A stretch of 64,000 nucleotides of DNA, from the NCBI RefSeq assembly GCF_002300555.2, contig NZ_NTHN02000001.1:1-64000 (forward strand), given 5' to 3'. Shown one piece after another: positions 3,851 to 31,343 of the stretch. Under the pieces are notes generated by a model, which ran no database searches, was not told the DNA's origin, and was given only the letters and a program-made list of their open reading frames with translations. The stretch's first letter is position 1, and the number at the start of each line of letters is the position of its first letter. Both the position numbers and the translations under genes were made by a program. The stretch is from Alloyangia mangrovi. GTDB lineage: Bacteria; Pseudomonadota; Alphaproteobacteria; Rhodobacterales; Rhodobacteraceae.

Positions 3851-3869
3851 TCCCCCCCGGTTCCCATGT

Positions 3870-3896
3870 CGCCGGGGGCCGCCGTGGCCCCCGGCG
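3870..3896. promoter_or_regulatory. Intercistronic GC hairpin after the receptor gene
   Basis: An 11-bp perfect stem (3870-3880 with 3886-3896, CGCCGGGGGCC) has a 5-nt loop and no T tract. It sits between the receptor and permease genes. Such hairpins usually stabilise the upstream mRNA 3' end or attenuate read-through, making more receptor than permease. Confidence 0.6.
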
Positions 3897-3962
3897 ATCC
3901 ACTCCGGATCCCTGCCTGCCAGGCCCGTCCCTGCCAGGTCCTTACCTGAAAGCGCATCACCC

Positions 3963-4493
3963 ATGAAACAGCTCGACCGGGTTGCGCAAGCGACGACCGC
4001 CGTGGCCTGCATCTTCGTCATCATCATGATGCTGCATGTCAGTGCCGATGTCGTCGCGCGCACCTTCTTCCACGCCCCGCTCATCGGCACGACCGAGATC
4101 GTCGCGGCCTATTACATGGTCGCCCTGGCGTTCCTGCCGATCGCATGGATTTCCCGCCAACGCGGACACATCATCGTGGAGCTCTTCACCTCGCACCTGT
4201 CCAAGCGCAAGGTGAAGGCGCTCGACGCCTTCGCCGGCGTCGTCACCCTCGCCTATGTCTGCCTCTTCGTGTGGAAGCTCCTCGGCATCGCCATCGAGAA
4301 GACCCACATCCGCGAGGCATGGGAATCCGCCACCGGCTTCGTCGAGATCTGGCCCTCGCGCTGGGTCGTGCCCGCGGGCTTCCTCTTCATGGCGATCTAC
4401 GTGCTGATCCACACCCTGCGCGATGCCCGGGCCGCCCTCACGGGTGACGTCTCCGAAACCGACGTCGAAGCGCGCCTGGAGGTGATGGAATGA
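3963..4493 (+). CDS. TRAP transporter small permease (DctQ family)
   Basis: This is an inner-membrane protein of about 176 aa with four predicted transmembrane segments (near residues 12-32, 46-64, 85-105 and 130-150) and the DctQ-type segment RQRGHIIVELF after the second one. It is the small subunit that pairs with DctM to form the sodium-coupled transporter fed by the upstream receptor. Its stop overlaps the DctM start as ATGA at 4490, so translation of the two is coupled. The ATG at 3963 has no strong ribosome binding site close by, but the protein starts where DctQ proteins usually start. Confidence 0.9.
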   Translation: MKQLDRVAQATTAVACIFVIIMMLHVSADVVARTFFHAPLIGTTEIVAAYYMVALAFLPIAWISRQRGHIIVELFTSHLSKRKVKALDAFAGVVTLAYVCLFVWKLLGIAIEKTHIREAWESATGFVEIWPSRWVVPAGFLFMAIYVLIHTLRDARAALTGDVSETDVEARLEVME

Positions 4494-5806
4494 GCGGCCC
4501 CCTGATCGGCGCCCTCGGGCTTCTGGGGGTGCTCGGGCTCATCGCGATCCGCATCCCCATCGGCGTTGCCCTGGGCGTCGCGGCGGTGGCCGGCCTCACG
4601 CTGCTGCGCAACGGGCGCGTGGCGATGAACGTGATGGAGCAGACCCCGTTCGAGGTCGCCGCCAGCTGGAGCCTCTCGGCCATTCCCATGTTCATCCTGA
4701 TGGGCGCCATCGCGCACAACTCCGGCATCTCGGTGGCACTCTTCCGCGCCGCCCGGCTCTGGGCCTCGCGCCTGCCCGGCGGGCTGGCTGTGGCCACCAA
4801 CCTCGCCTCGGCGGGCTTTGCCGCCGCCTCGGGCTCGTCGGTCGCCACCGCGGCGACCATGGGCCGGCTCGGCATCCCCGAGATGCTCCGGGCCGGCTAC
4901 GACAAGGGGCTTGCCGCCGGAGTCGTCGCCTCGGCGGGCACGCTCGGCGCGCTGATCCCGCCCTCGATCATGTTCGTCATCTACGGCGTCTTCGCCGAGG
5001 TCTCGATCACCAAGCTGCTGGTCGCGGGCGTGCTGCCCGGCGTCCTGACGGCGGCGGTCTACACGGCGATGATCATCCTGCGCGCAAAGCTGAACCCGGC
5101 CATCGCCCCCGCCGTCCGGGTGGACCCGGAAGAGGGCACGCTCTGGCAGGCGCGCTGGCGGGCGCTGCTGCCGGTCTGGCCGGTGCTGGTGCTGATCTTC
5201 GGGATCATCGGCGGGCTCTACGGCGGCATCTTCACCCCCACCGAGGCCGGCGCCGGCGGCGCCCTGCTGGCCTGCGCGATCGCGCTCTTCCAGCGGCGCC
5301 TGACAAGGCAGGTGGTCTGGACCTCGGTGATGGAGGCGGTGACCACCACGGCCTCGCTGCTCTTCGTGGCCTATGGTGCCGTGATGTTCACCAAGTTCCT
5401 GGCGCTCTCGGGGCTGCCGGTCTTCCTTGGCCACACCATCGAGAGCTGGCAGCTCTCGCCCTACATGCTGATCCTCGCCGCCTCGGTCATTTACCTGGTC
5501 CTCGGGATGTTCCTCGATCCGATGGGCGTACTGCTGCTGTCGCTGCCGGTGATGCAGCCGATGTTCGACGCGGTCGGCGCCGATCCGATCTGGGTCGGGG
5601 TGATCGTGGTGAAATTCATCGAGATCGGCCTGCTCACCCCGCCCGTCGGCTTCAACGTCTACGTGGTGAAATCGGTGGTCGGCGACGAAATCGCCCTCGG
5701 CCGGATCTTCCGCGGTGTGGGCTGGTTCCTGCTCTGCGAGGTGATCATCATGGTGCTGCTCGTGGTGTTCCCGCAGATCTCGCTCTTCCTGCCTAACGGG
5801 ATGTGA
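4490..5806 (+). CDS. TRAP transporter large permease (DctM family)
   Basis: This is a 438-aa polytopic membrane protein with about 12 hydrophobic segments. Characteristic DctM stretches are SGSSVATAATMGRLG, AGTLGALIPPSIMFVIYG and GLLTPPVGFNVYVVKS. It is the translocation subunit of the TRAP system encoded from 2735. The 3' end overlaps the convergent LysR gene by 14 bp, so the two transcripts are antisense to each other at their ends. Substrate identity must come from the receptor and the enzymes around it. Confidence 0.93.
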   Translation: MSGPLIGALGLLGVLGLIAIRIPIGVALGVAAVAGLTLLRNGRVAMNVMEQTPFEVAASWSLSAIPMFILMGAIAHNSGISVALFRAARLWASRLPGGLAVATNLASAGFAAASGSSVATAATMGRLGIPEMLRAGYDKGLAAGVVASAGTLGALIPPSIMFVIYGVFAEVSITKLLVAGVLPGVLTAAVYTAMIILRAKLNPAIAPAVRVDPEEGTLWQARWRALLPVWPVLVLIFGIIGGLYGGIFTPTEAGAGGALLACAIALFQRRLTRQVVWTSVMEAVTTTASLLFVAYGAVMFTKFLALSGLPVFLGHTIESWQLSPYMLILAASVIYLVLGMFLDPMGVLLLSLPVMQPMFDAVGADPIWVGVIVVKFIEIGLLTPPVGFNVYVVKSVVGDEIALGRIFRGVGWFLLCEVIIMVLLVVFPQISLFLPNGM

Positions 5807-6749
5807 GCAAGGGGGCGGCGGAGGCATCCGCCGCCCCGCCGCCCTCCACCGTGCCCCTGTCCCAGGGCGCCACCGGCTGGACGGCCTCCCGCAGCCAGTC
5901 GCACATGGCCATGACAAGCCGGTCCTTGCTCCGCGACACCGGCACCCAGGCCGAGATCCAGAGCTCGGGAATGGCATACTCCTCCAGCACCCGGCACAGC
6001 GTGCCCCGCGCCACATGCGGCCGCGCCAGGTAATCCGCGACCACCGCCACGCCAAGGTCCGCCAGCGCCGCCTCGACCAGCACCTGGCTGTCGTTCACCG
6101 AGAAATGCGAATTGATCTCGACGCTCACCGGCCCCTGCGCCCCCTCGAAGATCCAGTTCGAACCGATCGGGTGGAAGGTCAGGCAATCATGGTTCAGCAG
6201 GTGCTGCGGGTGGGTCAGCTCCCCTGCCCGCTCGAGATACCCCGGCGAGGCCACGGTCGAGCGCGGATAGGGGCAGAGCGGGATCGCCTCGACGTTCGGA
6301 TAGGACGAGGGGATCGCGCCAATGGCGATGTCGAACCCCTCCTCCATCGGGTTGACCGACCGGTCCATCAGCACGAGGTCGATCCGCACCCCCGGATGCG
6401 CCGCCTGGAACTCGGTGACGATCCTCCCGAAATGCAGCACGCAGAGGGTCGTCGGGCACTTGATCCGCAGACTGCCCGCCACTGGCGAGCCATGGGCCCT
6501 CAGATCGGCAAAGGCATCGGTGACCTCCGCCACGATGGCAAGGAACCGCGGGTGCACCTGCGCGCCGGTCTCGGTCAGCTCCAGCTTGCGGGTCGAGCGA
6601 ATGAAGAGCGGCGCCCCGACCTGGTCTTCAAGCCGGTTCACCTTCTTCGAGATCACCGAGGGCACGGTATCGAGATTGCGCGCCGCCGCCGAGAAACTGC
6701 CTGCGCGCACCACCGCAAGGAAGGCGCGCATATTGTCGATCGTATCCAT
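5793..6749 (-). CDS. LysR-family transcriptional regulator
   Basis: The product is about 318 aa. The N-terminal winged helix-turn-helix (MRAFLAVVRAGSFSAAARNL, then SVISKKVNRLEDQVGAPLF) is followed by a LysR effector domain starting near residue 92. This is the subgroup in which positions after the HTH read KKVNRLE. The gene is transcribed divergently from the FAD oxidoreductase and aconitase X genes, and the 126-bp gap holds a 25-bp inverted repeat of the type LysR proteins bind. It probably activates the oxidoreductase-aconitase X operon when the pathway substrate is present. Confidence 0.92.
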   Translation of the reverse strand: MDTIDNMRAFLAVVRAGSFSAAARNLDTVPSVISKKVNRLEDQVGAPLFIRSTRKLELTETGAQVHPRFLAIVAEVTDAFADLRAHGSPVAGSLRIKCPTTLCVLHFGRIVTEFQAAHPGVRIDLVLMDRSVNPMEEGFDIAIGAIPSSYPNVEAIPLCPYPRSTVASPGYLERAGELTHPQHLLNHDCLTFHPIGSNWIFEGAQGPVSVEINSHFSVNDSQVLVEAALADLGVAVVADYLARPHVARGTLCRVLEEYAIPELWISAWVPVSRSKDRLVMAMCDWLREAVQPVAPWDRGTVEGGGAADASAAPLLTSR

Positions 6750-6772
6750 CTGGCTCCTCTTCCCCGAGCAAG

Positions 6773-6797
6773 TATCTTTCGCAATTCGAGAAAGGTA
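6773..6797. promoter_or_regulatory. Candidate LysR box (inverted repeat)
   Basis: CTTTC (6776-6780) and GAAAG (6790-6794) form an inverted repeat with a 9-bp centre, and the TA pairs at 6773-6774 and 6796-6797 extend it. It lies in the divergent lysR / FAD-oxidoreductase promoter region, the expected place for the LysR recognition site. Confidence 0.5.
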
Positions 6798-6820
6798 AAG
6801 GCGTGAATTTCTTCTGTTTC

Positions 6821-6840
6821 CGGGTGCAACCGGGTGCAAC
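6821..6840. repeat. Perfect tandem duplication of a 10-mer
   Basis: CGGGTGCAAC occurs twice head to tail, at 6821-6830 and 6831-6840. The pair lies between the LysR-type box and the ribosome binding site of the FAD oxidoreductase gene. It may be a regulator contact repeated on the same helical face, or a recent slippage duplication. Confidence 0.6.
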
Positions 6841-6875
6841 TTTCGCCCCAACGAAGTGAACGAGGAGCATCCGCC

Positions 6876-8222
6876 ATGAGCGAGCAATTCAACACCGCGA
6901 CCCGGGTGGTGCGGCGCGAGGCCGGGCGCCCGGTCGACCGGCTGACGGCGGACATCTGCGTCGTCGGCGCCGGGATCTCGGGCGTCACCGCGGCCCTGCA
7001 GGCCGCAAAGTTGGGCCGAAAGGTCGTGCTGCTCGACAGCCAGCCCGCGCTTGGCGGCCAGGCGGTGAACTCGATCATCGCCACCTTCTGCGGGCTCTTC
7101 TCCAACGGCACCCATGGCTATCAATTCACCCATGGCATCGCCGACGATCTGCTCGGCTACCTCGAAGCGCAGGACAAGGGCATCTTCTACCGCCACGGGC
7201 CGAACACCACCGTCGTCTACTACGACGAGGTCGCGCTTGGTCGCTGGGTCGAGGAAAGCATCCTCGCCGCCGGAATCACCGTGGTGCTCGGCGCCATGCT
7301 GAATGGCACCGAGGTAGAGGGCGGCCGGGTCACCCGCGGCCATTTCCTCACCCGCTATGGCGCGCTGGACGTGGATGCCGACGGCTGGGTCGATGCCTCT
7401 GGCGACGCGGCGCTGGTCTGGCAATCGGGCTTCGACTGCCGCGAGCCCGACCGCAACGGGGTCTTCGGCACCCAGATGGTGGTGATGGAGAACATCGAAG
7501 AGGCCGCCCAGCCGACCCGCGACCTGATCGGGGCGCGGATGAAGGAGGTGGGCGACCGCTACGGGCTGCGGCGGCGCGAGGGGCTCGGCTTCACCATCCC
7601 CGGCCGCGGCATCGCGGCAATGAATATGACCCATGTGGAAACGCCGCTCGAACCCGTGGCCGCCTCGGCGGCGGCGCTGGACGGCAAGGATCAGGCGATG
7701 CGTGCGGTCGACTTCCTGCGAACCGAATTCCCCGAGTGTTTCGGCAAGGCCCGCATCCGCTCCTTCGGCCTGCCGGGGATCCGCCAGACCCGCTGGATAA
7801 AGGGCCGCCATCACCTGACGGTCGACGAGATCCGCTCCGGCCACAAGTTCGGCGACGCCATCGGCCGCACCGCCTGGCCGATCGAACTGCACGACCATGA
7901 CGACGGGCATCACTGGATCGTCTTCGATCAGGACCACGTGCACTATGTCCCGCTCGGCAGCCTGGTGCCCGAGGCCTGCCACAACGTCATTGCCGCCGGG
8001 CGCTGCATCGACGCCGACAGCGCCGCGCTCTCCAGCGTGCGCGTCATGGGGCCCTGCATCGCCATGGGCATGGCCGCGGCCCACGCGCTTGACCTCGCGG
8101 GAACCGGAAGTACCCATCAGATCGACATGGAGGAGATGCGCGCCCGCGTCTCCGAGAACGTCGAACGCCAGCACTACCGCTGGGACGAAAAGGAGCTGGC
8201 CTCGGTCGCGATCAACTCGTGA
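6876..8222 (+). CDS. FAD-dependent oxidoreductase (FAD_oxidored family)
   Basis: The product is about 448 aa. The dinucleotide-binding motif VVGAGISGVTAALQAAKLG starts near residue 29, followed by an acidic strand end (VVLLD) and GGQAVN, the arrangement of flavoproteins of the fumarate-reductase/GidA-like superfamily. The C-terminal FAD-closing region reads IAAGRCIDADSAALSS. No signal peptide is present, so it is cytoplasmic. CGAGGAG lies eight bases before the ATG. It is the first gene of a three-gene unit with both aconitase X subunits, and probably oxidises or reduces the hydroxy or amino acid that aconitase X then dehydrates. The substrate is not known. Confidence 0.85.
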   Translation: MSEQFNTATRVVRREAGRPVDRLTADICVVGAGISGVTAALQAAKLGRKVVLLDSQPALGGQAVNSIIATFCGLFSNGTHGYQFTHGIADDLLGYLEAQDKGIFYRHGPNTTVVYYDEVALGRWVEESILAAGITVVLGAMLNGTEVEGGRVTRGHFLTRYGALDVDADGWVDASGDAALVWQSGFDCREPDRNGVFGTQMVVMENIEEAAQPTRDLIGARMKEVGDRYGLRRREGLGFTIPGRGIAAMNMTHVETPLEPVAASAAALDGKDQAMRAVDFLRTEFPECFGKARIRSFGLPGIRQTRWIKGRHHLTVDEIRSGHKFGDAIGRTAWPIELHDHDDGHHWIVFDQDHVHYVPLGSLVPEACHNVIAAGRCIDADSAALSSVRVMGPCIAMGMAAAHALDLAGTGSTHQIDMEEMRARVSENVERQHYRWDEKELASVAINS

Positions 8223-8242
8223 GCCGGACCAGGGGAGGACAT

Positions 8243-9514
8243 ATGCAACTGACCGATACAGAAAAGGCCATGCGGGACGGCAGCGGAGGCGAGGCCGTCG
8301 CCGCCGCCATGGACCTGCTGATCCGCTACGGCGAGGCCTTGGGAGCCGAGCGGCTGGTGGAGACCGACAATGTGGCCGGCGCCTTCAACGCCTCCACGCC
8401 CTCGGTGCGCAAGATCGCGGAGCGGGGCATGGACGAGGTCTTCTCGCGGCTCAACCTCGACAGCGACAGGACGGTCGAGATCCCCCGCTTGGCGGCGCGC
8501 ACCTGCCAGCTGATCACCGGGATCGACGACCAAAACTGGGCGCTGCAGGGGGCCGACCCGCAGATGATCGAGATGCAGCGTGCCAGCGAGGCCTTCGTCG
8601 GCCAGCGCGGGGTCAATCTCATGGCCACCTGCACCCCCTACCAGGTCGGCAACGTGCCGACCTTCGGCGAGCATTGCGCGTGGATGGAAAGCTCGGCGGT
8701 GGTCTATTGCAACGGCGCGCTTGGCGGGCGCACCAACGTCGAGGGCAAGGAAAGCACCGGTGCCGCCGCGCTGACCGGGCGGATCCCCTACTGGGGCTAC
8801 CACCTGACCCGGAACCGCTATGGCAATCGCCATATCCGCGTCGACGTGCCGGTGCGCTCGATGCTCGACTGGGGCCTTCTGGGCTATTTCACCGGCGAAA
8901 GGGTCGAAGAGAACATCCCCGTGCTCGAGGGGGCGCTGGCGGGGGTCGACCTGGTGACGCTGAAGCACTTCGGCGCCGCCGCCGCTTCCTCCGGCGGGGT
9001 CGAGATGTATCACATCCCCGGCCACACGCCCGAGGCGCGCAGCGCCGAGGACGCCTTCGGCCCCAACCGGGCGGAAGAGCAGCATGTCTACGATGCCGCG
9101 GCGCGCAAGCAGATGTACGAGACGCTGCAGAGCGCGACCGACCGCAAGGTGGACTTCATCATGCTCGGCTGCCCGCACAACTCGATCGAGCAGGTCGGCC
9201 GGATCGCCGCACTGCTGGACGGCAAGCGGCTGCACCCGGACGTGGCGCTCTGGGTGCACACGCCGCGTGCCATCCGCACGGTGGCCGAGCGCTCGGGCTA
9301 CGTGGCGCGGATCGAGGCCGCCGGCGGCAAGGTCATGTCCGACACCTGCCCGGCGATCTCGCGCCGCTTGCCCCCCGGCGTGCGGGTGATCGCCACCGAT
9401 TCCGCCAAGCAGGCGCACTACCTGCCCGCCATCGCCAAGGTGCAGGGCTGGTTCGGCAGCCTGGACGCCTGCATCGAGGCCGGCCTGACCGGCATCTGGA
9501 CCGGAGATTTCTGA
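8243..9514 (+). CDS. Aconitase X catalytic (large) subunit
   Basis: The product is about 423 aa, matching the AcnX catalytic domain (formerly DUF521). Likely Fe-S ligands are C130 (TCTPYQVGN), C310 (GCPHNS) and C369 (SDTCPAIS), in contexts conserved in AcnX. Characterised bacterial AcnX two-subunit enzymes dehydrate cis-3-hydroxy-L-proline, and archaeal ones dehydrate mevalonate 5-phosphate. The ATG at 8243 follows AGGGGAGGA at good spacing. The stop overlaps the small-subunit start. No pyrroline-2-carboxylate reductase is nearby, so hydroxyproline is only one candidate substrate. Confidence 0.9.
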   Translation: MQLTDTEKAMRDGSGGEAVAAAMDLLIRYGEALGAERLVETDNVAGAFNASTPSVRKIAERGMDEVFSRLNLDSDRTVEIPRLAARTCQLITGIDDQNWALQGADPQMIEMQRASEAFVGQRGVNLMATCTPYQVGNVPTFGEHCAWMESSAVVYCNGALGGRTNVEGKESTGAAALTGRIPYWGYHLTRNRYGNRHIRVDVPVRSMLDWGLLGYFTGERVEENIPVLEGALAGVDLVTLKHFGAAAASSGGVEMYHIPGHTPEARSAEDAFGPNRAEEQHVYDAAARKQMYETLQSATDRKVDFIMLGCPHNSIEQVGRIAALLDGKRLHPDVALWVHTPRAIRTVAERSGYVARIEAAGGKVMSDTCPAISRRLPPGVRVIATDSAKQAHYLPAIAKVQGWFGSLDACIEAGLTGIWTGDF

Positions 9515-21185: not shown

Positions 21186-21737
21186 ATGCCCATCGCCCAA
21201 GCCCACGCCACCTTCAAGCAAGAGAGCCACATGCGGACACGATTCACGGTGAACGGCGAGGCCCGCGAGGTCGAGCACGATACGCGCACCACCCTTCTCG
21301 ACGCCCTGAGAGACCAGCTCGGGCTGACCGGCACCAAGAAGGGCTGCGACCATGGCCAATGCGGCGCCTGCACGGTTCTGCTCAACGGCAAGCGGGTGAA
21401 CTCCTGCCTCTGCCTCGCCGCCATGCACGAGGGCGACGAGGTGACCACCATCGAGGGGCTCGGCAGCCCCGAGGCGCTGAACGCGCTGCAGAAGGCCTTT
21501 GTCGCCAAGGACGGCTACCAGTGCGGCTTCTGCACGCCGGGGCAGATCGTCTCGGCCACCGCGATGCTCGAGGAGCTGCGGGCGGGGGACCCGTCGTTCG
21601 CCTCGGCCTCGCTGGAGGGGGAGATGCCGCTGGATGACGCCGAGATCGCCGAGCGGATGAGCGGCAACCTCTGCCGCTGCTCGGCTTATCCGCTGATCCG
21701 CGAGGCCATCGCCATGGCCGCGGAGGTGAAGTCATGA
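21186..21737 (+). CDS. Aldehyde oxidoreductase 2Fe-2S subunit (PaoA/YagT type)
   Basis: The product is about 183 aa. It carries a plant-ferredoxin-type 2Fe-2S domain ([18 protein letters not shown], next Cys in NSCLCLA) and the second 2Fe-2S four-helix domain ([12 protein letters not shown] and GNLCRCSAY), as in all xanthine-oxidase-family small subunits. ATG 21186 follows a strong GGAGGGAGGGG site; ATG 21231 is an alternative that would remove 15 residues. No Tat signal is seen, unlike E. coli PaoA, so the complex may be cytoplasmic. Its stop overlaps the next start as ATGA. Confidence 0.93.
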
Positions 21738-22756
21738 GGGACTTCGAGTACAGCCGGGCCGAGACGCTTTCGGGTGCCGCGGGGCAGATCGGCGAGGGCG
21801 CGAGCGTCGTCGCCGGGGGCACCAACCTGCTCGACCTGATGAAAATCCAGGTGATGTCCCCGGCGCGGCTGGTCGACATCTCGCGGATCGGCGAGCTGCA
21901 GGGGATCTCGGATGACGGGGAGGGCCTGCGCATCGGCGCCTTGGCGACCAATTCCGAGCTGGCGGCGGATGGGCGCATCCGCAGCGGCTGGCCGCTGCTG
22001 TCGCGCGCCATTCTGGCGGGCGCCTCGGCGCAGATCCGCAACAAGGCCACCACCGGTGGCAACCTGCTGCAGCGCACGCGATGCCCGTATTTCTACGACA
22101 CCGCCATGGCCTGCAACAAGCGCAGCCCCGGCGAAGGCTGCGCGGCGCAAGAGGGCGTGGGGCGCATGCTGGCGATCTTCGGCACATCCGAGCATTGCCT
22201 TGCGGCGCATCCCTCGGACATGGCGGTGGCACTGACGGCGCTGCGGGCCGAGGTGGAGATCCGTTCGAAGGAGGGTGAGACGCGGCGCCTGCCGGTGACC
22301 GAGCTTTACCGGCTCCCCGGCGACCGGCCTGACCTGGAGACCGTGCTGGCGCCGGGCGAGATCATCACTGCCGTGCGGCTGCCGGCGCCGATGGCGGAGA
22401 CGCGGCAGGTCTACAGCAAGGTGCGCGACCGCGCCTCCTATGCCTTCGCGTTGGTCTCTGTGGCTGCCGTGGTGCAGATGGACGGGGATCGCATCGGCTC
22501 GGCCTCGCTGGCCTTTGGCGGCGTCGCGCCGAGGCCCTGGACCGACCCGGAGGTGGATCAGGCGCTGGTCGGGGCGGCCCCGGGTGATGAGGCTTTCGGC
22601 AATGCCGCCGATGTACTGGTCGCGCAGGCGCAGTGCCATCCCGACACAGAGTTCAAGAAGCCGCTGTTGCGGCGCACCCTGATCGCCGCGCTGCGCGAGG
22701 CCACCGGACTGGCCGAAACCGCGACAGGCGCCAGCACCGCGAGGATCCCGGCATGA
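21734..22756 (+). CDS. Aldehyde oxidoreductase FAD-binding subunit with Fe-S insert (PaoB/YagS type)
   Basis: This 340-aa subunit passes electrons from the Fe-S subunit to FAD. The FAD site shows [13 protein letters not shown] and [19 protein letters not shown]. Right after it lies a four-cysteine insert ([11 protein letters not shown], then a Cys in GEGCAAQEG) corresponding to the extra 4Fe-4S cluster of PaoB, which ordinary xanthine dehydrogenase FAD subunits lack. It overlaps both neighbours as ATGA, forming a strictly coupled operon. Confidence 0.92.
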
Positions 22757-24948
22757 CCAAGACCTTCCGCATGAACGAGGCGCAGCCGCGCCTTCTCGAC
22801 GAGACCGGACAGGGCATCGTTGGCGCTCCGCTCGATCGCCCCGAGGGGCCCAAGAAGGTCTCGGGCCGGGCGCATTACGCCGCTGACGGGCTGCCCGAGG
22901 GGGCGGCGCAGGGCGTGCTGGTGCGCGCCACGATTGCTCGCGGCCGGATCACCGGCATCGATGAGGACTCGGTGTCGGGGCTCGAGGGGGTGATCGGCGT
23001 CTTCCACGGCCCCGAGTTCCTGCGCAACCCGGCGCAGGGCATGGCAGGCGAGGCCCCGGTGCAGCCCGGTGGCGAGGTGCACTACCACGGCCAGCCGATC
23101 GCGCTGGTGGTGGCCGAGAGCTTCGAGGCGGCGCGCGACGCGGCGCAGCGGCTTGTCGTGACCTACGAGGCCGAGGCGGGCGTGGTAACCGATCCCGCCC
23201 GCAGCGAGGAGCTGGAGCAGGACGATCCCGAGACCGCCGGTGATTTCGAAGCCGCGTTTGCCGCGGCAGAGGTGACGCTCGACCGCAGCTACACGACCCC
23301 GGCGCAGGCTGCCGCCGCGATGGAACCCCACGCGGCTCTGGCCGAGTGGGAGGGGGATGAGCTGACGCTGCGCGGCGCGCTGCAGATGCTGCGGTTCAAC
23401 AAGGAGGAGCTGGCGGATTCGCTCGGCATCCCGGCGGAGAAGGTGCGCATCCTCGCGCCCTACGTCGGGGGCGGTTTCGGCTCGAAGCTGGGCATCGGCC
23501 CGGAAGCGGTGGCCGCGGCGCTCGCGTCGCGCACGCTCGGGCGCCCGGTGCGCGTGGTGATGACCCGGCAGACCGTCTTCGACGCCGTGCTGCGCCGCAC
23601 CGAGACAAGCCAGCGCCTGCGCCTTGGCGCCGACAGGGATGGACGCCTGCGGGCGCTGTCGCACGATGACCGCGTGTCGAACATCCAAGGGGAGGGCTTC
23701 GCCGAGCCGGTGAGTCAGGCGTCGCAGTTCCTCTATGGTGCCGAGGGGCTCAGCTTTGCGCAGACATTGGCACGGGTCAGCCGGACGCCGGCGGGCTCGG
23801 TGCGTGCGCCGGGCGAGGCCGTGGGGATGCTGGCGCTCGAGCAGGCGATGGACGAGCTGGCCGAGATGCTGGAGATGTGCCCGGTTGCGCTGCGGCTGAA
23901 GAACCTGCCCGAGAAGAACCCGATGACCGGCCAGCCTTTCAGCGCCACGCGCCTTGGCGATTGCCTGCGCGAGGGGGCGGAGCGCTTCGGTTGGGATGCG
24001 CGCAAGCCGATGGGCAGCCGCCGCGAGGGCGAGTGGTACGTCGGCATGGGCATGGCCTCGGCGGCGCGCTCGAACATGCTGGTGAAATCCGCGGCGCGGG
24101 TGCGGCTGAGCGGAGAGGGCGCGGTGGTCGAGACCGATATGACCGACATCGGCACCGGCACCTATGCGATCCTCGGTCAGATCGCCGCCGAGATGCTGGG
24201 CTTGCCGGTCGAAAAGGTCGAGGTGCGCCTTGGCGACACCAGCTTCCCCGGGGCCTCGGGGTCCGGCGGTTCCTTCGGCGCCAACTCGGCGGGCTCGGCG
24301 ACCTTCCTTGCCGCCAAGGCGATCCGCGAGACGCTGGCCGGGCGCATGGGCTGCGGCCTGTCGGAGCTGACCCTTCAGGAAGGCATCGCCCGCGGCGGCA
24401 ACCGCGAGGTGCCGCTGGCGGAGCTCATCGAGGAGGAATTGGTCGAGGAGGCCAGCGTCGAGGCGGGTGACACCTCGGAGAGCCACTTCTCGTCGGGCTT
24501 CGGTGCGCATTTCGCCGAGGTGGCGGTGCATGCCTACACCGGCGAGGTCCGGGTGCGTCGCATGCTCGGCGTGATGGCCATGGGGCGGATCCTCAACGAG
24601 AAGACCGCGCGATCGCAGGCGCTTGGCGGGATGATCTGGGGGCTCGGCGCGGCACTGACCGAGGAGATGGCGCATGACCCGCGCACCGGCCACGTGGTGA
24701 GCCGCGATCTTGCCAACTACCACGTGCCCGCCCATGCCGACGTGCCGGGCGACATGACGGTGGTCTTCCTCGAAGAGCGCGACGACATGGCCAACCCGAT
24801 CCAGACCAAGGGTATTGGCGAGCTTGGCATTTCCGGCGCGGGGGCGGCGATCCTCAACGCGGTGCGCAATGCCTGCGGCGCGCGGGTCTACGACATGCCG
24901 GCGACGCCCGACCGGGTGATCGCGGCGATGGAAGCGGCGGGGTTCTGA
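22753..24948 (+). CDS. Aldehyde oxidoreductase molybdenum-binding subunit (PaoC/YagR type)
   Basis: This catalytic subunit of about 731 aa hydroxylates aldehydes to carboxylic acids, probably with a MCD-type cofactor. Visible landmarks are [48 protein letters not shown] and the catalytic Glu in [12 protein letters not shown] near the C-terminus. With the two upstream subunits it forms a complete heterotrimeric enzyme. The dedicated XdhC/PaoD-type maturation factor is not encoded in the window. The position downstream of glycogen genes is probably chance rather than pathway. Confidence 0.93.
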
Positions 24949-24965
24949 GCCGGGCGGATCGGCTG

Positions 24966-24995
24966 AAGGGGCGGGGGCGGAGGCTCTCGCCCCTT
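24966..24995 (+). terminator. Hairpin after the aldehyde oxidoreductase operon
   Basis: AAGGGGCG (24966-24973) pairs with CGCCCCTT (24988-24995) across a 14-nt loop, 18 bp past the stop. There is no long T tract. It probably marks the operon end. Confidence 0.45.
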
Positions 24996-25147
24996 GGTGC
25001 GCGCAGGCCTCAACGCCGGAACCACCCAGCCCTACGCAACGGAAGTCTTTGGAATCTCGGGGAAGGGCCTTTTGCGGCGGGGCTTGCCATTGACTCTGGG
25101 GCGACTAATTGGCTTACCTGCCGCATCATTCAGCACTGGGGTCCAAA

Positions 25148-26023
25148 ATGCCGCAATCCGCGACGGCGAATATCCTGACGATCCTCGAAACGAGCTTTTC
25201 CGGCATCGTCGAGGAGTGGCTTGGCACACAGGTCAAGGAAGGCGTCAAACGCTCGGACCTGTTCTCTGACGCCGAGAGCCGGGCTCAGAACCAGGAGCTG
25301 CTCAAGGCCTTTGCCAAGGGTGTTCGCACGGGGGTGGTCGGCGAGGAATTCAACCTCGATGACGATGCCTGGGAAGACCTGCGCGCGGTGCTCTCGGAGG
25401 TCAGCAAGGAGCGGGTCAGCCGCGGTGTGACGCCGACCGAGATGGCGACCTTCGTGCTGGCGCTGAAGACCCCGCTCTTCAACCGGCTGGAGGCGATGCT
25501 CGACGTCGAGCAGAGCGTGCTGATCCGCGACGTGCTGCTGGTGACCCGGCTGGTCGATGCCTTTGCGATCTACACCAACGAGATCTTCATCGGCGAGCGT
25601 GACCAGATCATCGAGCGCCAGCGCCAGGAGATGCTCGAGCTGTCGACCCCGGTGGTCGAGCTCTGGGACCGGGTGCTGACCCTGCCGTTGATCGGCACGC
25701 TGGATTCCGCCCGGGCGCAGGAGGTCATGGAGAACCTGCTGCAGACCATCCTCGAGCGTCAGGCCGAGGTGGTGATCATGGACATCACCGGCGTCGGCAC
25801 GGTCGACACGCAGGTGGCTCAGCACTTGCTGCGCGCCGCCGCCGCGGTGCGGCTGATGGGCGCGGAATGCATCATCAGCGGCATCAGCCCGATGATCGCC
25901 CAGACCATGGTGCAGCTCGGCATCGACGTCGGCACGGTCTCGACCCGCTCGAGCATCCGCACGGCGCTGTCGGACGCGCTGCAGCGGGTCGGCTATGTGA
26001 TCCAGAAGACCGAGGCCTCCTGA
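25148..26023 (+). CDS. RsbR-like stressosome scaffold protein (RsbRD-N + STAS)
   Basis: The product is about 291 aa. The N-terminal half (residues 1-160) is a helical RsbRD-N-type or globin-like sensor region ending in a long linker helix (IGERDQIIERQRQEMLELSTPVVELW), the hallmark junction to the STAS domain. The STAS domain (about 168-285) has MDITGVGTVDTQVAQHLL and GISPMIAQTMVQLGID, matching the phosphorylated segments of Bacillus RsbR. It should form the stressosome shell with the next gene product. It opens a five-gene run with overlaps or 1-bp gaps. The input signal is unknown. Confidence 0.9.
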   Translation: MPQSATANILTILETSFSGIVEEWLGTQVKEGVKRSDLFSDAESRAQNQELLKAFAKGVRTGVVGEEFNLDDDAWEDLRAVLSEVSKERVSRGVTPTEMATFVLALKTPLFNRLEAMLDVEQSVLIRDVLLVTRLVDAFAIYTNEIFIGERDQIIERQRQEMLELSTPVVELWDRVLTLPLIGTLDSARAQEVMENLLQTILERQAEVVIMDITGVGTVDTQVAQHLLRAAAAVRLMGAECIISGISPMIAQTMVQLGIDVGTVSTRSSIRTALSDALQRVGYVIQKTEAS

Positions 26024-26024
26024 G

Positions 26025-26378
26025 GTGTCCGGCGTCACGTCGATAAACCTGGTCGAGAGCGCGCTGCTCGTGTCGATCCAGGACGACGTCACGGATACGG
26101 AAATCGTCGAACTGCAGGACATGCTCTCGCATCGGATCGCCAAGGAGAACGTCAAGGGCGTGATCCTCGACATCAGCTCGCTGGAGATCGTCGACACCTT
26201 CGTGGGCCGGGTCATCGCGCAGCTTGCGGGGATCTCGCGGCTGCTGGCCGCCGAGACCTTCGTGGTGGGCATGCGCCCTGCGGTGGCGGTGACCCTGGTC
26301 GAGCTCGGCATGTATCTCACCGAGACACGGACCGCGCTCAGCCTGACCCATGCGCTTGCGCAGTTGCGGCGTGATTGA
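26025..26378 (+). CDS. RsbS-like STAS-domain antagonist
   Basis: This 117-aa single STAS domain corresponds to RsbS, the stressosome core protein that sequesters the RsbT kinase until phosphorylated. The phospho-acceptor region reads LDISSLEIVDTFVGRVI, closely like the RsbS site with its serine retained. The start is GTG at 26025, one base after the rsbR stop with GAGG just before it. The end overlaps the RsbT-like gene by eight bases. Confidence 0.9.
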   Translation: MSGVTSINLVESALLVSIQDDVTDTEIVELQDMLSHRIAKENVKGVILDISSLEIVDTFVGRVIAQLAGISRLLAAETFVVGMRPAVAVTLVELGMYLTETRTALSLTHALAQLRRD

Positions 26379-26790
26379 TCGCAAGCAAACAGCCAACAGG
26401 ACCCTGCTTGCGGCCATGCCCCTCGCGACCAGTCGCGATGTCGTGGCTGCACGTCAGGCGGTGGCCCGTTTCATGAAGGACCGAGGGGCGAGCGCGCTTC
26501 GCATCACCCGTTTCGCGACGGCGGTGAGCGAGATCTCACGCAATGCCATCGTCCACGGCGGAGGCGGCGACATTTCGATTTATCTCGATGGCCGCAACGA
26601 GTATCTGCACGTCGAATGCCGGGACACGGGTCCGGGGATCGAAGACGTGACGCTGGCCATGACCGAGGGCTACACCTCGGGCGGGGGCCTCGGCCGGGGG
26701 CTCGGCGGGGCGAAACGGCTTTCGCACGGTTTCGAGATCCACTCCGTGCCGGGCGAGGGAACACTCGTGTCGATGAGCGTGAAACTATGA
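26371..26790 (+). CDS. RsbT-like serine/threonine kinase
   Basis: This switch kinase of about 139 aa has a GHKL/HATPase fold: the N box SEISRNAIVHGGGG, the G1 motif DTGPGIED and the G2 region GGGLGRGLGGAKRL. By homology it phosphorylates RsbR and RsbS, is then released, and activates a downstream phosphatase. GTG 26371 inside the rsbS end is the likely start; the stop overlaps the next gene as ATGA. The full R-S-T order is conserved, which makes the assignment firm. Confidence 0.92.
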   Translation: MIDRKQTANRTLLAAMPLATSRDVVAARQAVARFMKDRGASALRITRFATAVSEISRNAIVHGGGGDISIYLDGRNEYLHVECRDTGPGIEDVTLAMTEGYTSGGGLGRGLGGAKRLSHGFEIHSVPGEGTLVSMSVKL

Positions 26791-27797
26791 ACCAGTGGGT
26801 CGAGATTGATGACCGCAGCGCAGTGGCCGTGATCCGCCGCCTCGCGCGGCGCCATGCCGCCGAAATGGGACTGCCGGAGCAGCGCATCGACGAGTTGGCC
26901 ATCGTGGCCAGCGAGGCGACGACCAATGTCCTGCGCTACGCCGATCGGGGACGGGCGCTGATCGACGTGCAGCGCAACGCCGGGTCCGAGCGGCTGGTCA
27001 TGATCTTCACCGACCGCGGTCCGGGGATCTCCGACATCGACCGAATGTTCCAGGACGGGGAAAGCTCGACGGATTCCGCGGGGCTGGGGCTGGGCGCGAT
27101 CCGCCGCCTGTCGGACACTTTCGACATCTACAGCTCGGCCGAGAGCGGCACGACGATGGTCTGCACCTTCACAGCACGGCCCGAGGTCCCGGAGCTCGGG
27201 ATCGACGCGGTGGCGCTGCGGGTCTGCCACCCGCAGGAGCAGGTGTGCGGCGATGACTTCCAGCTCCGCCAGACCCGCGGGGCGACGGATGTGCTGCTCT
27301 GCGACGGGCTTGGGCACGGCCCGGAGGCCGCGGCGGCGGCGGAAGAGGTGATGGAGGCGGCCCGGCGTGCCGGGGGGCTATCGCAGGATCCGGGCGCGAC
27401 GATGCGGAAGATCACCGAGCAGCTCGTCGGGCGGCGCGGTGCGGTGGCGGCCATCGTCCATATCGCCCATCCGGAGATGACGATGAGCTATGCCGGGCTG
27501 GGGAATATCTCGACGCTCCTGATCGGGGCGCAGGGCGTGCGCCGCATGGCCGTGCGCGACGGGCGGATCGGGGCCGGGCCGACGCATGGCTACGAGGAGA
27601 AGGTGGAGCTGGCGGAGGGGGATCTGCTGATCCTGCACAGCGATGGTCTCAAGACATTGCGCGAGGCGCATTTCCCGCCGGGGCTGCTCAAGAAGAGCCC
27701 CATGGTGATCGCCGGCTTCTTCCTTGACCGGGCCTTCCGGGGCCGCGACGACGCGAGCATCGTGGTGATGCGCATCACCCGGGGACCCGAGCGATGA
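26787..27797 (+). CDS. ATPase-phosphatase fusion: RsbT/RsbW-like HATPase + RsbX/SpoIIE-type PP2C domain
   Basis: The product is about 336 aa with two modules. Residues about 1-130 are an anti-sigma-type HATPase (SEATTNVLRYADRG, DRGPGISD, GLGLGAIRRLSD). Residues about 145-335 are a PP2C/SpoIIE-type phosphatase with GDDF, CDGLGHGPEAA, HSDGLKTLRE and RDDASIVV metal-binding positions. In Bacillus the fourth gene is either RsbU (output) or RsbX (resetting). Here the phosphatase domain is RsbX-like and fused to a kinase-like ATPase, so it may combine resetting with another regulated step. No sigma-B-type factor is in the window. Confidence 0.88.
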   Translation: MNQWVEIDDRSAVAVIRRLARRHAAEMGLPEQRIDELAIVASEATTNVLRYADRGRALIDVQRNAGSERLVMIFTDRGPGISDIDRMFQDGESSTDSAGLGLGAIRRLSDTFDIYSSAESGTTMVCTFTARPEVPELGIDAVALRVCHPQEQVCGDDFQLRQTRGATDVLLCDGLGHGPEAAAAAEEVMEAARRAGGLSQDPGATMRKITEQLVGRRGAVAAIVHIAHPEMTMSYAGLGNISTLLIGAQGVRRMAVRDGRIGAGPTHGYEEKVELAEGDLLILHSDGLKTLREAHFPPGLLKKSPMVIAGFFLDRAFRGRDDASIVVMRITRGPER

Positions 27798-28936
27798 AAT
27801 CCGAGAAGCTGGCCACGGTGAACCTCGAGAAGAGCGCCGATGTCGCGCGCCTGCGCGACGTGGCGATGACGCTGACGCACGTGCTGGGCTTCGGTGCCTT
27901 CGAGCGGACGCGGACGGTGACCGCCATCGTCGAGTTGGGCCGCAATGCCATCGAGCATGGCCAGAAGGGGCGGGCGACCTTCGCGCTGACCGAGGTGCGC
28001 GGCAAGCCGGCGCTGGACCTGACGGTGATTGACCAGGGCCGGGGCATCCCGCGCGAGCAGCTCGATCCTAACGGGGCGGTGGGCTCCTCCTCCTCCTCGG
28101 GCATGGGGCTGGGGCTGCGCGGGGTGCAGCGGATCGCCGAGCGGTTCGCGGTCGAGACCGGCCACGAGGGAACTCGGATCAACACGTCGTTCCTGCCCTT
28201 GGCGGCGCAAGCGGACAGCAGGCTGCTGGTCGCACGGGCCGCCGAGGCGCTGAGCGCGCTCAGCGCCAAGGATCCGACCGCGGCGCTCACCGAGGAGAAC
28301 CGCGCGCTCACCGAGGGCATCGCCGACCGCGACCTGCTGATGCAGGAATTGCACCACCGGACGGGCAACAACCTGGCCCTGATCGTGGCGCTGATCCGCA
28401 TGAGCAAGTCTCAGGCCGAGGCGGAGGAGACCCACCAGGTGCTGCGCGAGCTCGAGATCCGCGTCGGCTCGCTGGCCAAGGCGCACGAGTTGATGCAGCG
28501 CAGCGCAAGCGCCAGCGAACTCGACCTGTGCGACATGCTGCAGGAGGTCGCCGCGAACGCCGAGCGCGCCTTCAGCGGTGGTGGTCGGGCCGTGGTGATC
28601 GGGGTGGACTGCCCGCCGCTCGAATTGGAAAGCAAGCTGGCCATCGACATCGGTCTGATCGTCGGCGAGCTGATCACCAACGCGTACAAATATGCCTTTG
28701 TCGGGCGTGACAGCGGGCGGATTTCGGTGACGCTGAAGGGCGGCCTGCAAGAGGGGCTGGTCCTGAACGTCGCCGATGACGGGGTCGGCCTGCCGGAGGA
28801 CGCGGAGCGTCCCGAACGCTCGCAGTCGCTGGGCTGGCGGATGATCCGCACGCTGACCTTCCAGCACGGGGCGACGCTGAGCGTCGATGGCGCGGGCGGG
28901 CTGAGCGTGCAGGTCAAGTTCCCGGCGCAGGGGTGA
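27794..28936 (+). CDS. Two-module kinase: HATPase domain + HisKA_2/HWE-type histidine kinase
   Basis: This 380-aa protein has a first GHKL domain (residues about 20-135: ELGRNAIEHG, DQGRGIP, GMGLGLRGVQRIAE) resembling RsbT. A linker leads to a HisKA_2 dimerisation/phosphoacceptor region (DLLMQELHHRTGNNLALIVA, His 187/188) and a second GHKL domain (ELITNAYKYAF, ADDGVGLPED, LGWRMIRTL). There is no sensor domain or membrane segment. The overlap with the phosphatase gene (ATGA) ties it to the stressosome. It could convert the stressosome state into a phosphorelay, for example towards a response regulator encoded elsewhere. That output route is inference. Confidence 0.88.
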   Translation: MKSEKLATVNLEKSADVARLRDVAMTLTHVLGFGAFERTRTVTAIVELGRNAIEHGQKGRATFALTEVRGKPALDLTVIDQGRGIPREQLDPNGAVGSSSSSGMGLGLRGVQRIAERFAVETGHEGTRINTSFLPLAAQADSRLLVARAAEALSALSAKDPTAALTEENRALTEGIADRDLLMQELHHRTGNNLALIVALIRMSKSQAEAEETHQVLRELEIRVGSLAKAHELMQRSASASELDLCDMLQEVAANAERAFSGGGRAVVIGVDCPPLELESKLAIDIGLIVGELITNAYKYAFVGRDSGRISVTLKGGLQEGLVLNVADDGVGLPEDAERPERSQSLGWRMIRTLTFQHGATLSVDGAGGLSVQVKFPAQG

Positions 28937-29052
28937 GCCGGGCGCAGAGCGGGTCTGGTCAGACCTTTGCCCGATAGGTGGCAGAACCAAGAGCTATTGG
29001 TGCCCGGTGCCCCTGCGCGGGATGATGCAGGCGAACCACAAGAGGTCCCACC

Positions 29053-30403
29053 GTGCCCGAAGCAACTGCCGCTACACTGGGGGCCGCCAATGCCGCCCCG
29101 CTCGAGACGCTGATCGCACTTGCTCAGCTTCCTCCGGAGGACTGCCCCGGCGAGGCGCTGCTCTTGGCCCGGGTTTCTCTGCTCGACTGGCTGATCTGCG
29201 GCATCGCAGGCGCTTCCGAGCCGGTGGCGGAGAAGATGCGGGCCTTTGCGGCGGCGGAGCAGGGGGGGCGACGGCCCGGCCTCGCTCTTCGGCGGCGGTA
29301 TGGCCCCGGCGCGGATGGCGGCGCTGGTCAATGGCACCACCTCGCATGCGCTCGACTATGACGACACGCATTTCGATCACGTCGGGCATCTCTCGGTCGG
29401 CCTCTATCCCGCGGCGCTGGCGGTGGCGGAGGCCCGAGATGCCTCGGTGCTGGAGCTCAGCGCCGCGTTTCTCGTCGGAGCGGAGAGCGCGATACGGCTC
29501 GGCCGGGTGCTTGGGGCGGCGCATTACAACCGCGGCTTTCACCAGACCGCCACCGCCGGTGCTTTCGGCGCCACGGTCGCCGCAGGGCGGCTCGCGGGGC
29601 TCGACGACGCGCAGATGCGGGTGGCGCTCGGGCTCTGTGCGACGCGCGCCTCGGGGCTCAAGAGCCAGTTCGGCACGATGGGCAAGCCGCTCAACGCGGG
29701 GATCGCGGCGTCGAACGGTGTCGAGGCGGCGCAACTTGCCGCGCTGGGGCTGAGTTCGGCGGACGACGGCATCTTCGGGCAGCAGGGCTTCGTCGAGACC
29801 CATACGGACGCGCCCGGGGCCTTCCTTGGCGGGCTGACCGACTTTCGCTTCATGGACAACCGCTACAAGTTCCACGCCTGCTGCCACGGGCTGCACGCGA
29901 TGATCGAGGGGCTGCGCGATATTGCCGGGCAGGTCGATCCTTCGCAGGTCGCGCGGCTGCATGTCCGGACCAATCCGCGCTGGTTGCGGGTCTGCGATCT
30001 GAAGGCGCCGCGCACAGGGCTCGAGGTGAAGTTCAGCTACGCCTGGCTGGCGGGCATGGTGCTGGGCGGGATGGAGACGGGCGAGGGCGGGCTCTACACC
30101 GATGCGCTGGCCGCGGATCCCGCACTGGCCGCCTTCGCGCGGAAGGTCGAGGTCACGGGCGATGCCGCGCTCGGGGATCAGCAGGGCGCGGGCACGCTTG
30201 TCCTGCGCGACGGGACGCGGATCGACTACAGCCACGATCTTGCCGCGCCGGTGCCGCCGGGCGAGCTGATGCTGCGGGTGGCCGCCAAGGCCCGGACGGT
30301 GCTCGGAGCGCGGGCGACGCCGGTGCTGAAGATGGCGGAGCGGATCGACCATGACCCGCGCGGTGTCTCGGCCCGGGAGATCGGCGCGCTGATCCGCGCC
30401 TAG
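29053..30403 (+). pseudogene. MmgE/PrpD-family dehydratase (one frameshift, probably an assembly error)
   Basis: MmgE/PrpD proteins include 2-methylcitrate dehydratase and cis-aconitate decarboxylase. The N-terminal piece (LARVSLLDWLICGIAGASEPVAEKM) loses frame at seven G, 29262-29268. Removing one G continues as EQGGDGPASLFGGGMAPARM and then the family motif VNGTTSHALDYDDTHFDHVGH. The corrected protein is about 449 aa, full length for the family. It later shows KFHACCHGLHAMIEGL. It stands alone, convergent with a LysR gene 10 bp away. Members of this family occur in itaconate degradation clusters, and such a cluster may start at 40770, but the link is weak. Confidence 0.85.
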
Positions 30404-30413
30404 AGCGGCGCGC

Positions 30414-31343
30414 TCAGACCAGCGTGCCCTCCCAGATGCCCCGCTGCACCAGCTCGCGCGCCACGTCGAGCGTGACCTGCTCCACCGCGCGGCAGGCGCG
30501 GGTCATCACCCGCGCCGGGTTCGACACGAGGTAGACCGGCCGCATCATGGTGGGCGCGACGATGGGTGCGCGCAAGAGTTCGCCGCGCTGGACGAAGTCC
30601 TGCGCCGCGACCGGGGCGAAGATCGTATAGCCCGAGCCGCGCGCGACCAGCTCCTTGATCTGGGTCATCGCGTCCATCTCGACCACGACGTTGAGCTTGA
30701 TCCCGGCCTTGCTGCAGTAGCCCTCGATGGTGTTGCGCAGACCGTTCGAGGGCAGGATCATGTCGAGCGTCTGCAATTCGGCCAGAGGCACGGGGGTGCC
30801 CGGCGGCGTGTCCAGCGGCCAGGCGTCGGGTGCCGAGTAGAAGAACAGCTCCTCGTCCATGACATGCGTCGCCCGAAGCTGCCCTGCATCGGTCAGGTCG
30901 TAGAGAAAGCCGATGTCGACCGTGCCATCCTCGATCCAGGTCTTGAGATAGCCGCTCATCGCCTCGACCGCGCGCAGACGGACCTCGGGAAGTTCGAGCC
31001 GCACGGTCTCGGCCAGCGGCACCGACATGACCATCGAGCAGGACGGCGGCATGCCGAAGCCGACCCGGCCCCGCACCACGCCGCCCAGCTCGCGCATGTC
31101 GGCGATGCAGCGGTCGAGGCTGTCGCAGATCCGCCGCGCATGGTCGACGAAGACATGGCCCTCCTGGGTCAGCAGCGTGCCGCGCGGCGAGCGGTCCATG
31201 AGCTTGACGCCGAGCTCCTCCTCCATCCGCTGGATGTGCTGCGAGAGCGAGGGCTGCGCGACGCCGATGCTCTGCGCCGCGGCCGAGATCGAGGGCGCGT
31301 CGGCGATGGCGAGGAAATAGCGCAGCTGGCGAATGTCGATCAT
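30414..31343 (-). CDS. LysR-family transcriptional regulator
   Basis: The product is about 309 aa. The N-terminal HTH (QLRYFLAIADAPSISAAAQS, then VAQPSLSQHIQRMEEELGVKL) is of the LysR/Nac/Cbl type, and the effector domain follows from residue about 90. The gene overlaps the stop of the upstream alcohol dehydrogenase gene as ATGA and so is its cotranscribed partner. A classical ATAG-N7-CTAT box upstream of that operon (32554) is its likely site. It probably controls both the dehydrogenase operon and the divergent ABC transporter. Confidence 0.93.
   Translation of the reverse strand: MIDIRQLRYFLAIADAPSISAAAQSIGVAQPSLSQHIQRMEEELGVKLMDRSPRGTLLTQEGHVFVDHARRICDSLDRCIADMRELGGVVRGRVGFGMPPSCSMVMSVPLAETVRLELPEVRLRAVEAMSGYLKTWIEDGTVDIGFLYDLTDAGQLRATHVMDEELFFYSAPDAWPLDTPPGTPVPLAELQTLDMILPSNGLRNTIEGYCSKAGIKLNVVVEMDAMTQIKELVARGSGYTIFAPVAAQDFVQRGELLRAPIVAPTMMRPVYLVSNPARVMTRACRAVEQVTLDVARELVQRGIWEGTLV

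Follow-up and report, generated by a model that had tools for sequence, protein, structure and literature searches.

Stressosomes are protein hubs that sense stress. Those of Bacillus and Listeria combine RsbR, RsbS and RsbT with the phosphatase RsbX and feed an RsbU/V/W-SigB output. The outputs published so far work through release of RsbT from the stressosome and its binding to RsbU_N, carried by a phosphatase or a diguanylate cyclase; stressosome operons also include histidine kinases that have RsbU_N (PMC12143880 and PMC9237108). Vibrio-type modules, whose outputs are two-component or other systems, have a four-gene RSTX core, immediately followed by signaling genes that include HisKA and receiver (REC) genes (PMC9237108). 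Here, we describe a plus-strand run of five genes at positions 25148–28936 of a 64,000-nt stretch of Alloyangia mangrovi DNA (contig NZ_NTHN02000001.1, positions 1–64,000; hereafter, the window), which encodes RsbR, RsbS, RsbT, a GHKL-PP2C protein (X), and a GHKL-HisKA_2 kinase (K). Its core is of a known kind (stressosome, RSTX), and a histidine kinase beside a stressosome is already in print. The evidence tips slightly in favor of a stressosome variant in which K hands phosphate to PhyR or a receiver resembling it, switching on the alphaproteobacterial general stress response (GSR).

The five genes are one conserved alphaproteobacterial cassette. Genomes representing 84,980 species of bacteria and archaea were scanned with a K profile, and the best 80 of 141 loci were kept; the scan needs an exact HHRT[GK]NNL or SLGWRMIR peptide and misses more distant forms. 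Sixty-three loci (L021–L083) matched both parts of K or were cut by a contig end, whereas the other 17 of the 80 matched the kinase half only. The order RsbR-RsbS-RsbT-X-K on one strand was found in 60/63 loci, a fraction that, the loci having been found through K, does not give the frequency of RSTX modules lacking K; L047, L067, and L076 were cut by contig ends. The five-gene order is therefore far beyond chance. All 63 loci were alphaproteobacterial (33 Rhodobacterales, 17 Hyphomicrobiales, 12 Sphingomonadales, and 1 Parvularculales). The recurring order supports the view, taken in a first-pass annotation of the window, that the last gene is part of the module. The assembly of Alloyangia pacifica KcN7-14 contained two complete cassettes on different contigs (L021 and L024). 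No relatives of K were found among 18 pattern matches in viral contigs.

Junctions in the window were, in gene order, +1, −8 (or −29), −4, and −4 bases: RsbR and RsbS are one base apart, RsbT overlaps RsbS by 8 bases (GTG at 26371) or 29 bases (ATG at 26350), and RsbT/X and X/K both overlap by 4 bases. Operon status was judged by gene spacing only. The open reading frame coordinates agree with the first-pass description of every junction as overlapping or one base apart, and Pfam agrees with its domain assignments (RsbR, RsbS, RsbT, an ATPase-PP2C fusion, and an RsbT-like plus HisKA_2/HWE protein) and with its count of four GHKL domains in three of the five proteins.

The stressosome gene set occurs together: RsbR with sensor and STAS domains, RsbS with a STAS domain, and RsbT as a GHKL kinase. 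RsbR matched RsbRD_N (1.4e-19) and STAS (8.5e-16) in Pfam, and its best Protein Data Bank (PDB) matches were the RsbR proteins of Vibrio and Listeria. Its predicted structure (predicted local distance difference test score, pLDDT, 79; predicted template-modeling score, pTM, 0.52) has a helical sensor half and best matched full-length Listeria RsbR over 286 columns. In conservation alignments (65–68 rows per protein, near-copies included), the RsbR threonines T221 and T253 were kept in 65/65 and 64/65 rows. RsbS, for which B. subtilis and Listeria RsbS were the best PDB matches, had T58 in 65/65 rows; the aligned place is a Ser in Bacillus and Listeria RsbS, which we take to be the phosphoserine. 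The phospho-acceptor positions of stressosomes are presumably two Thr in RsbR and one Ser in RsbS, and these places are kept. The RsbT N-box residues E54, R57, and N58 were found in 67/67 rows.

Beyond the core, the cassette differs from the Bacillus and Listeria systems in its phosphatase, which has a GHKL domain, in its last gene, a histidine kinase, and in the acceptor of RsbS, which is Thr and not Ser. The SigB output branch was also not recovered. SigB/F/G gave 4 matches in the host genome, none over the curated cut-off, which extends to the whole genome the first-pass statement that sigma-B is absent from the window, and RsbU_N was not found in any of the five proteins (Pfam, E ≤ 0.05). 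With respect to the Vibrio-type survey, which used globin-type RsbR and has a single-domain X (PMC9237108), the cassette has an RsbRD_N-type RsbR and a GHKL-PP2C X, and K adds an RsbT-like domain and a HisKA_2 kinase.

An RsbX-type PP2C directly follows RsbT, as in RSTX modules, and is here fused to a GHKL domain (Pfam, HATPase_c_2 3.3e-16 and SpoIIE/PP2C 3.5e-11). X had three PDB matches in all, 3zt9 (2.9e-14), RsbX 3w40 (3.1e-7), and RsbW 6m36 (0.0027). The PP2C half matched 3zt9 (deposited as SpoIIE) and B. subtilis RsbX, the GHKL half matched RsbW weakly, and RsbU was not among the three. We take 3zt9 to be a Moorella stressosome phosphatase. The PP2C residues D156, D173, D286, D321, and D322 were invariant, and the N-box of the GHKL half lacked the RsbT-type Arg in 66/66 rows (ExxTN in 54, ExxQN in 11, and ExxHN in 1); ExxTN is also found in SpoIIAB and in a Streptomyces RsbW-like protein. 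Because the relatives of the PP2C half are 3zt9 and RsbX, X is more likely to be a feedback phosphatase than an output. The two-part output of the first-pass annotation is accordingly doubtful on the side of X, whereas its other part, K, stands as an intact-looking histidine kinase.

On contig C112 of the host genome, an RsbW-like GHKL gene comes after a STAS gene (L166, 1051–1917), an arrangement like that of Rhodobacter capsulatus RbaV/RbaW. With RbaV/W/Y a known partner switch in that organism (PMC3999984), X might be imagined as an RsbU-like main output that acts on a chromosomal partner switch of this type, with K as an accessory. We consider this very unlikely given the 3zt9 and RsbX matches, the lack of RsbU among the PDB matches and of RsbU_N in Pfam, and the retention of K in 60/60 complete loci (found through K, so that K-less forms are not excluded).

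K combines two HATPase stretches with HisKA_2 (5.5e-15) and HWE_HK (8.8e-8) matches in Pfam. In a structure comparison that covered K only, and whose list is no guide to families not shown there (VIA-align), the model of aa 2–138 matched SpoIIAB 1l0o (Z 16.0, root mean square deviation, rmsd, 3.0, 132 aligned), and that of aa 176–380 matched Erythrobacter EL346 4r39 (Z 19.8, rmsd 3.4, 177 aligned); 1th8 is SpoIIAB with its STAS partner. H187, H188, R189, T190, N192, and N193 (HHRT-x-NN) were present in 68/68 rows, as were E292 and N296, and R223, which we read as the R-box Arg, was invariant. These are the hallmarks given for HWE/HisKA2 kinases, that is, an H-box motif, an R-box Arg, and a Glu replacing the first N-box Asn (PMC12148442). 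The likeness to the GSR kinases of this class (PhyK and the LOV histidine kinases EL346 and RT-HK) covers the H-box, the R-box Arg, the N-box Glu, and the EL346 fold; the input differs, being LOV or PAS in those kinases and an RsbT-like GHKL domain in K.

The ExxRN N-box is common to the N-terminal domain of K and RsbT (67/67 rows each). In a tree of 78 GHKL domains, the N-terminal domains of K and X each formed one group, whereas RsbT needed two changes; the groups included rows from Alphaproteobacteria, Burkholderiales, and Deinococcus. The K domain fell on the RsbT side, a placement that depends on rooting at one long-branched row and has supports of only 82–87 (140 usable columns). For kinship with RsbT, the N-box is a firmer sign than the tree. 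The ATP-site Gly and Asp of the first GHKL domains of K and X were invariant or nearly so, and this also holds for catalytic residues at each of the four GHKL sites, in the PP2C, and in the DHp; thus, judged by their residues, all enzymes of the cassette look active, the extra GHKL domains included. This conservation in the first domain of K exceeds what docking by itself would require, and it might mean that the STAS proteins are phosphorylated by this domain as a second Ser/Thr kinase, with K acting mainly inside the stressosome. However, the DHp histidines and the second ATP site are equally invariant, and histidine-kinase activity is therefore also under selection; we regard a mainly internal role for K as unlikely.

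Features of the cassette in the window (all on the plus strand).
Feature	Position	Strand	Description
RsbR homolog, 291 aa	25148..26023	+	RsbRD_N-type helical sensor aa 12-115, STAS aa 170-260; Pfam
RsbR putative phospho-acceptors	T221 25808-25810, T253 25904-25906	+	conserved Thr
RsbS homolog, 117 aa, single STAS	26025..26378	+	STAS 7.4e-9 (Pfam); T58 at 26196-26198
RsbT homolog, 139 aa, GHKL Ser/Thr kinase	26371..26790	+	HATPase_c_2 2.3e-13 (Pfam); N-box E54-x-x-R57-N58
X	26787..27797	+	GHKL aa 12-124, RsbX-like PP2C aa 165-288; Pfam
K, 380 aa	27794..28936	+	RsbT-like GHKL + HisKA_2/HWE; Pfam, AlphaFold2 mean pLDDT 84
K N-terminal RsbT-like GHKL domain, aa 15-129	27836..28180	+	N-box E47-x-x-R50-N51
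K DHp (HisKA_2), aa 185-257	28346..28564	+	H187/H188 at 28352-28357
K catalytic ATP-binding domain, aa 242-376	28517..28921	+	N-box E292...N296

Three modules, from Deinococcus radiodurans pMPI, Paraburkholderia, and Sphingomonas aliaeris, resemble the cassette in gene order, in the GHKL-PP2C fusion, and in the N-terminal domain of the fifth protein. That protein is GHKL-HisKA-HATPase-REC in the three modules, whereas K has HisKA_2 and no receiver. In the GHKL tree, the N-terminal domain of K grouped with the same domain of hybrid kinases in other phyla. Since the hybrid-kinase modules share it, the predicted docking domain is combined with more than one type of kinase body, the body being HisKA_2 in this alphaproteobacterial family. 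The D. radiodurans pMPI module (25219–31024), found in a model organism, has two STAS genes, an anti-sigma-type gene, GHKL-PP2C, GHKL-HisKA-HATPase-REC, and REC-HisKA-HATPase in a row. In a Variovorax paradoxus locus (3786–9377), RSTX precedes a HisKA kinase that lacks the RsbT-like domain and, after it, a PAS-HisKA hybrid kinase with two receiver matches.

In the open-license literature, among the matches listed, we found no paper joining stressosome and PhyR/EcfG signaling, nor an RsbT-like domain on a kinase, an HWE/HisKA2 body, the spread over four orders, or a tie to the GSR. The first-pass idea of a little-described signaling system is weakened by the fact that the pairing of stressosomes with histidine kinases is in print (PMC9237108 and PMC12143880).

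Contig C1 of the host genome holds PhyR, NepR, an EcfG-type sigma factor, and a PhyK-like kinase together; this kinase matched NCBIfam PhyK below the cut-off. EL346 reportedly phosphorylates PhyR. HWE/HisKA2 is the kinase class that drives PhyR-NepR-EcfG, and RT-HK, an HWE/HisKA2 kinase of Rubellimicrobium (another member of the Rhodobacterales), phosphorylates one PhyR (PMC12148442). EcfG was looked for in the host genome and PhyR in five carrier genomes. In a family sample of 248 genomes, approximately one per genus and taken as GTDB Rhodobacteraceae, NepR was present in 111/248 genomes overall and in 7/7 cassette carriers (Fisher test, P = 0.003, or P = 0.007 with two same-genus carriers counted once). 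Across the wider set of loci, NepR was found in 47/49 carrier genomes, and the two misses have PhyR-like proteins (52% and 32–34% identity). This count came from 50 of the 63 loci, leaving out L024 (same assembly as L021) and 12 others, and L076 did not contribute to the 49 genomes; of the 12, L055 and L060 were covered for PhyR. A 33/33 subset (32 Rhodobacterales and Roseibium) is not a main result because its sampling was different and it overlaps the 7/7.

Kinase halves of the K type were found in 26/26 NepR-positive vs. 3/84 NepR-negative genomes tested and, with carriers removed, in 19/19 vs. 3/84. The 84 (4 + 80) were drawn from 137 NepR-negative genomes; within the set of 80, 2 of the 68 genomes at least 90% complete had such a kinase. 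A K-type kinase lay within 2.5 kb of NepR in 7/7 carriers. Genome G063 had only two matches at E ≤ 1e-10, K itself and the kinase beside NepR. The eighth match of the cassette search in the family sample (G219) had the kinase half and linker only; this kinase, the one closest to K in that genome, is a 527-aa frame on the minus strand (L135, 4642–6222), approximately 7 kb from NepR and beside the GSR locus. A single-domain receiver was found at most 5 kb upstream of RsbR in 4/66 loci (L017, L022, L023, and L043); PRK13435 was its best NCBIfam match and PhyR one of those ranking after it, none of them over the cut-off.

From the gene order, the domains, the conserved residues, the PhyR-NepR-EcfG locus of the host, and the co-occurrence, we infer complex formation, docking, phosphorylation, and PhyR as a target in the following way. 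RsbR and RsbS would form a scaffold. Under stress, RsbT would phosphorylate T221 and T253 of RsbR and T58 of RsbS, and the PP2C half of X would strip these phosphates in the manner of RsbX, with the GHKL domain holding X at the scaffold. K would be the output, its RsbT-like domain docking on the unphosphorylated STAS scaffold while the kinase is kept off. The simplest reading is that the GHKL domains of K and X would bind the STAS scaffold in the way that SpoIIAB binds SpoIIAA. Phosphorylation of the scaffold would then free or rearrange K, which would autophosphorylate at H187/H188 and donate the phosphate to PhyR or to a single receiver that resembles it, with EcfG released from NepR and the GSR switched on. 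The partner of K is probably a chromosomal PhyR or PhyR-type receiver and not a gene of the window.

Several points weigh against a GSR output. The proposed docking of K on STAS is an argument from homology only, and the STAS/RsbW-like pair on C112 could be an alternative target. The co-occurrence statistics ignore phylogeny, and the 26 NepR-positive genomes tested for K-type kinases were hand-picked from 111 (7 carriers, most others with at most 10 contigs). K was rejected as a PhyK ortholog, its kinase half forming a group of its own (support 50) outside the NepR-adjacent kinases. No gene was common to most flanks when our own gene calls were clustered (67 loci, 10 kb of flank or as far as the contig reached). 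Kinases of the HWE class also have roles beyond the GSR (PMC6530869). The family sample held two K-less stressosomes, too few for a control, and NepR was present in only one of the two genomes; in the NepR-negative genome (G017), the contig ends right after RsbT. Finally, GGAAC-N15–19-CGTT, which we take to be the EcfG promoter consensus, had 0 strict matches when up to 300 bases ahead of RsbR were searched at 66 loci (shuffle mean 0.34); therefore, the cassette is not an obvious EcfG target.

A looser EcfG-like pattern was present at 8 loci (200 composition shuffles, mean 3.2, maximum 7) with no common place, a slight, unexplained excess on which we put no weight. A second type of stressosome in the same family, without K, lies at L134 (4171–6576, G226:C103) and consists of RsbR, RsbS, RsbT, and a PP2C frame that has no GHKL match.

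Some of these points are what would be expected if the histidine-kinase output served another pathway, through an orphan receiver or other regulator: K is outside the PhyK group, no partner gene is common to most loci, HWE kinases can work elsewhere, and the hybrid kinases of Deinococcus, Paraburkholderia, and Sphingomonas that share the docking domain bear their own receiver. Against such an output are the presence of NepR in all seven carriers and the near confinement of K-type kinases to NepR-positive genomes among those tested; we hold it possible, on the unlikely side. Receiver-domain frames were found in the flanks of 14/66 loci.

The stretch 21500–28947 is common to the window and A. 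pacifica plasmid NZ_CP022193.1 (89.6% identity), which has a RepC gene upstream. The shared stretch stops 11 bases past the K stop, and downstream neighbors differ. Xanthine dehydrogenase genes flank the cassette in the window and in A. pacifica, whereas Salipiger CCB-MM3 and Phaeobacter have other, unrelated flanks. In window positions 25000–27000, GC was ∼0.65 over RsbR-RsbS-RsbT vs. ∼0.70 around; the lower value is consistent with a foreign origin but is no proof of it.

The targets of stressosomes outside sigma-B bacteria are largely open, and many GSR HWE kinases have no known input. If K does act on PhyR, two separately known stress systems would be wired together: through the cassette, the EcfG response would gain a sensory hub of megadalton size, and the Gram-negative stressosome would have a defined output. 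The RsbT-like domain fused to an effector would be a coupling unlike the published RsbT-RsbU_N mechanism. The five genes are annotated in cultured Phaeobacter inhibens 2.10 (plasmid pPGA2_239, PGA2_RS18170–18190), which makes the cassette directly testable. More tentatively, the two best-known bacterial general stress responses may meet here, with a Bacillus-type stressosome in control of the alphaproteobacterial EcfG response. The messenger domain would be built into the effectors, with no need for a free RsbT to reach RsbU_N, so that the same STAS sites on one scaffold would be contested by RsbT, the phosphatase X acting in feedback, and K. Because relatives combine this docking domain with different kinase bodies, the output kinase may have been exchanged in evolution, and the cassette would be a portable sensor hub plugged into the phosphorelay of its host.

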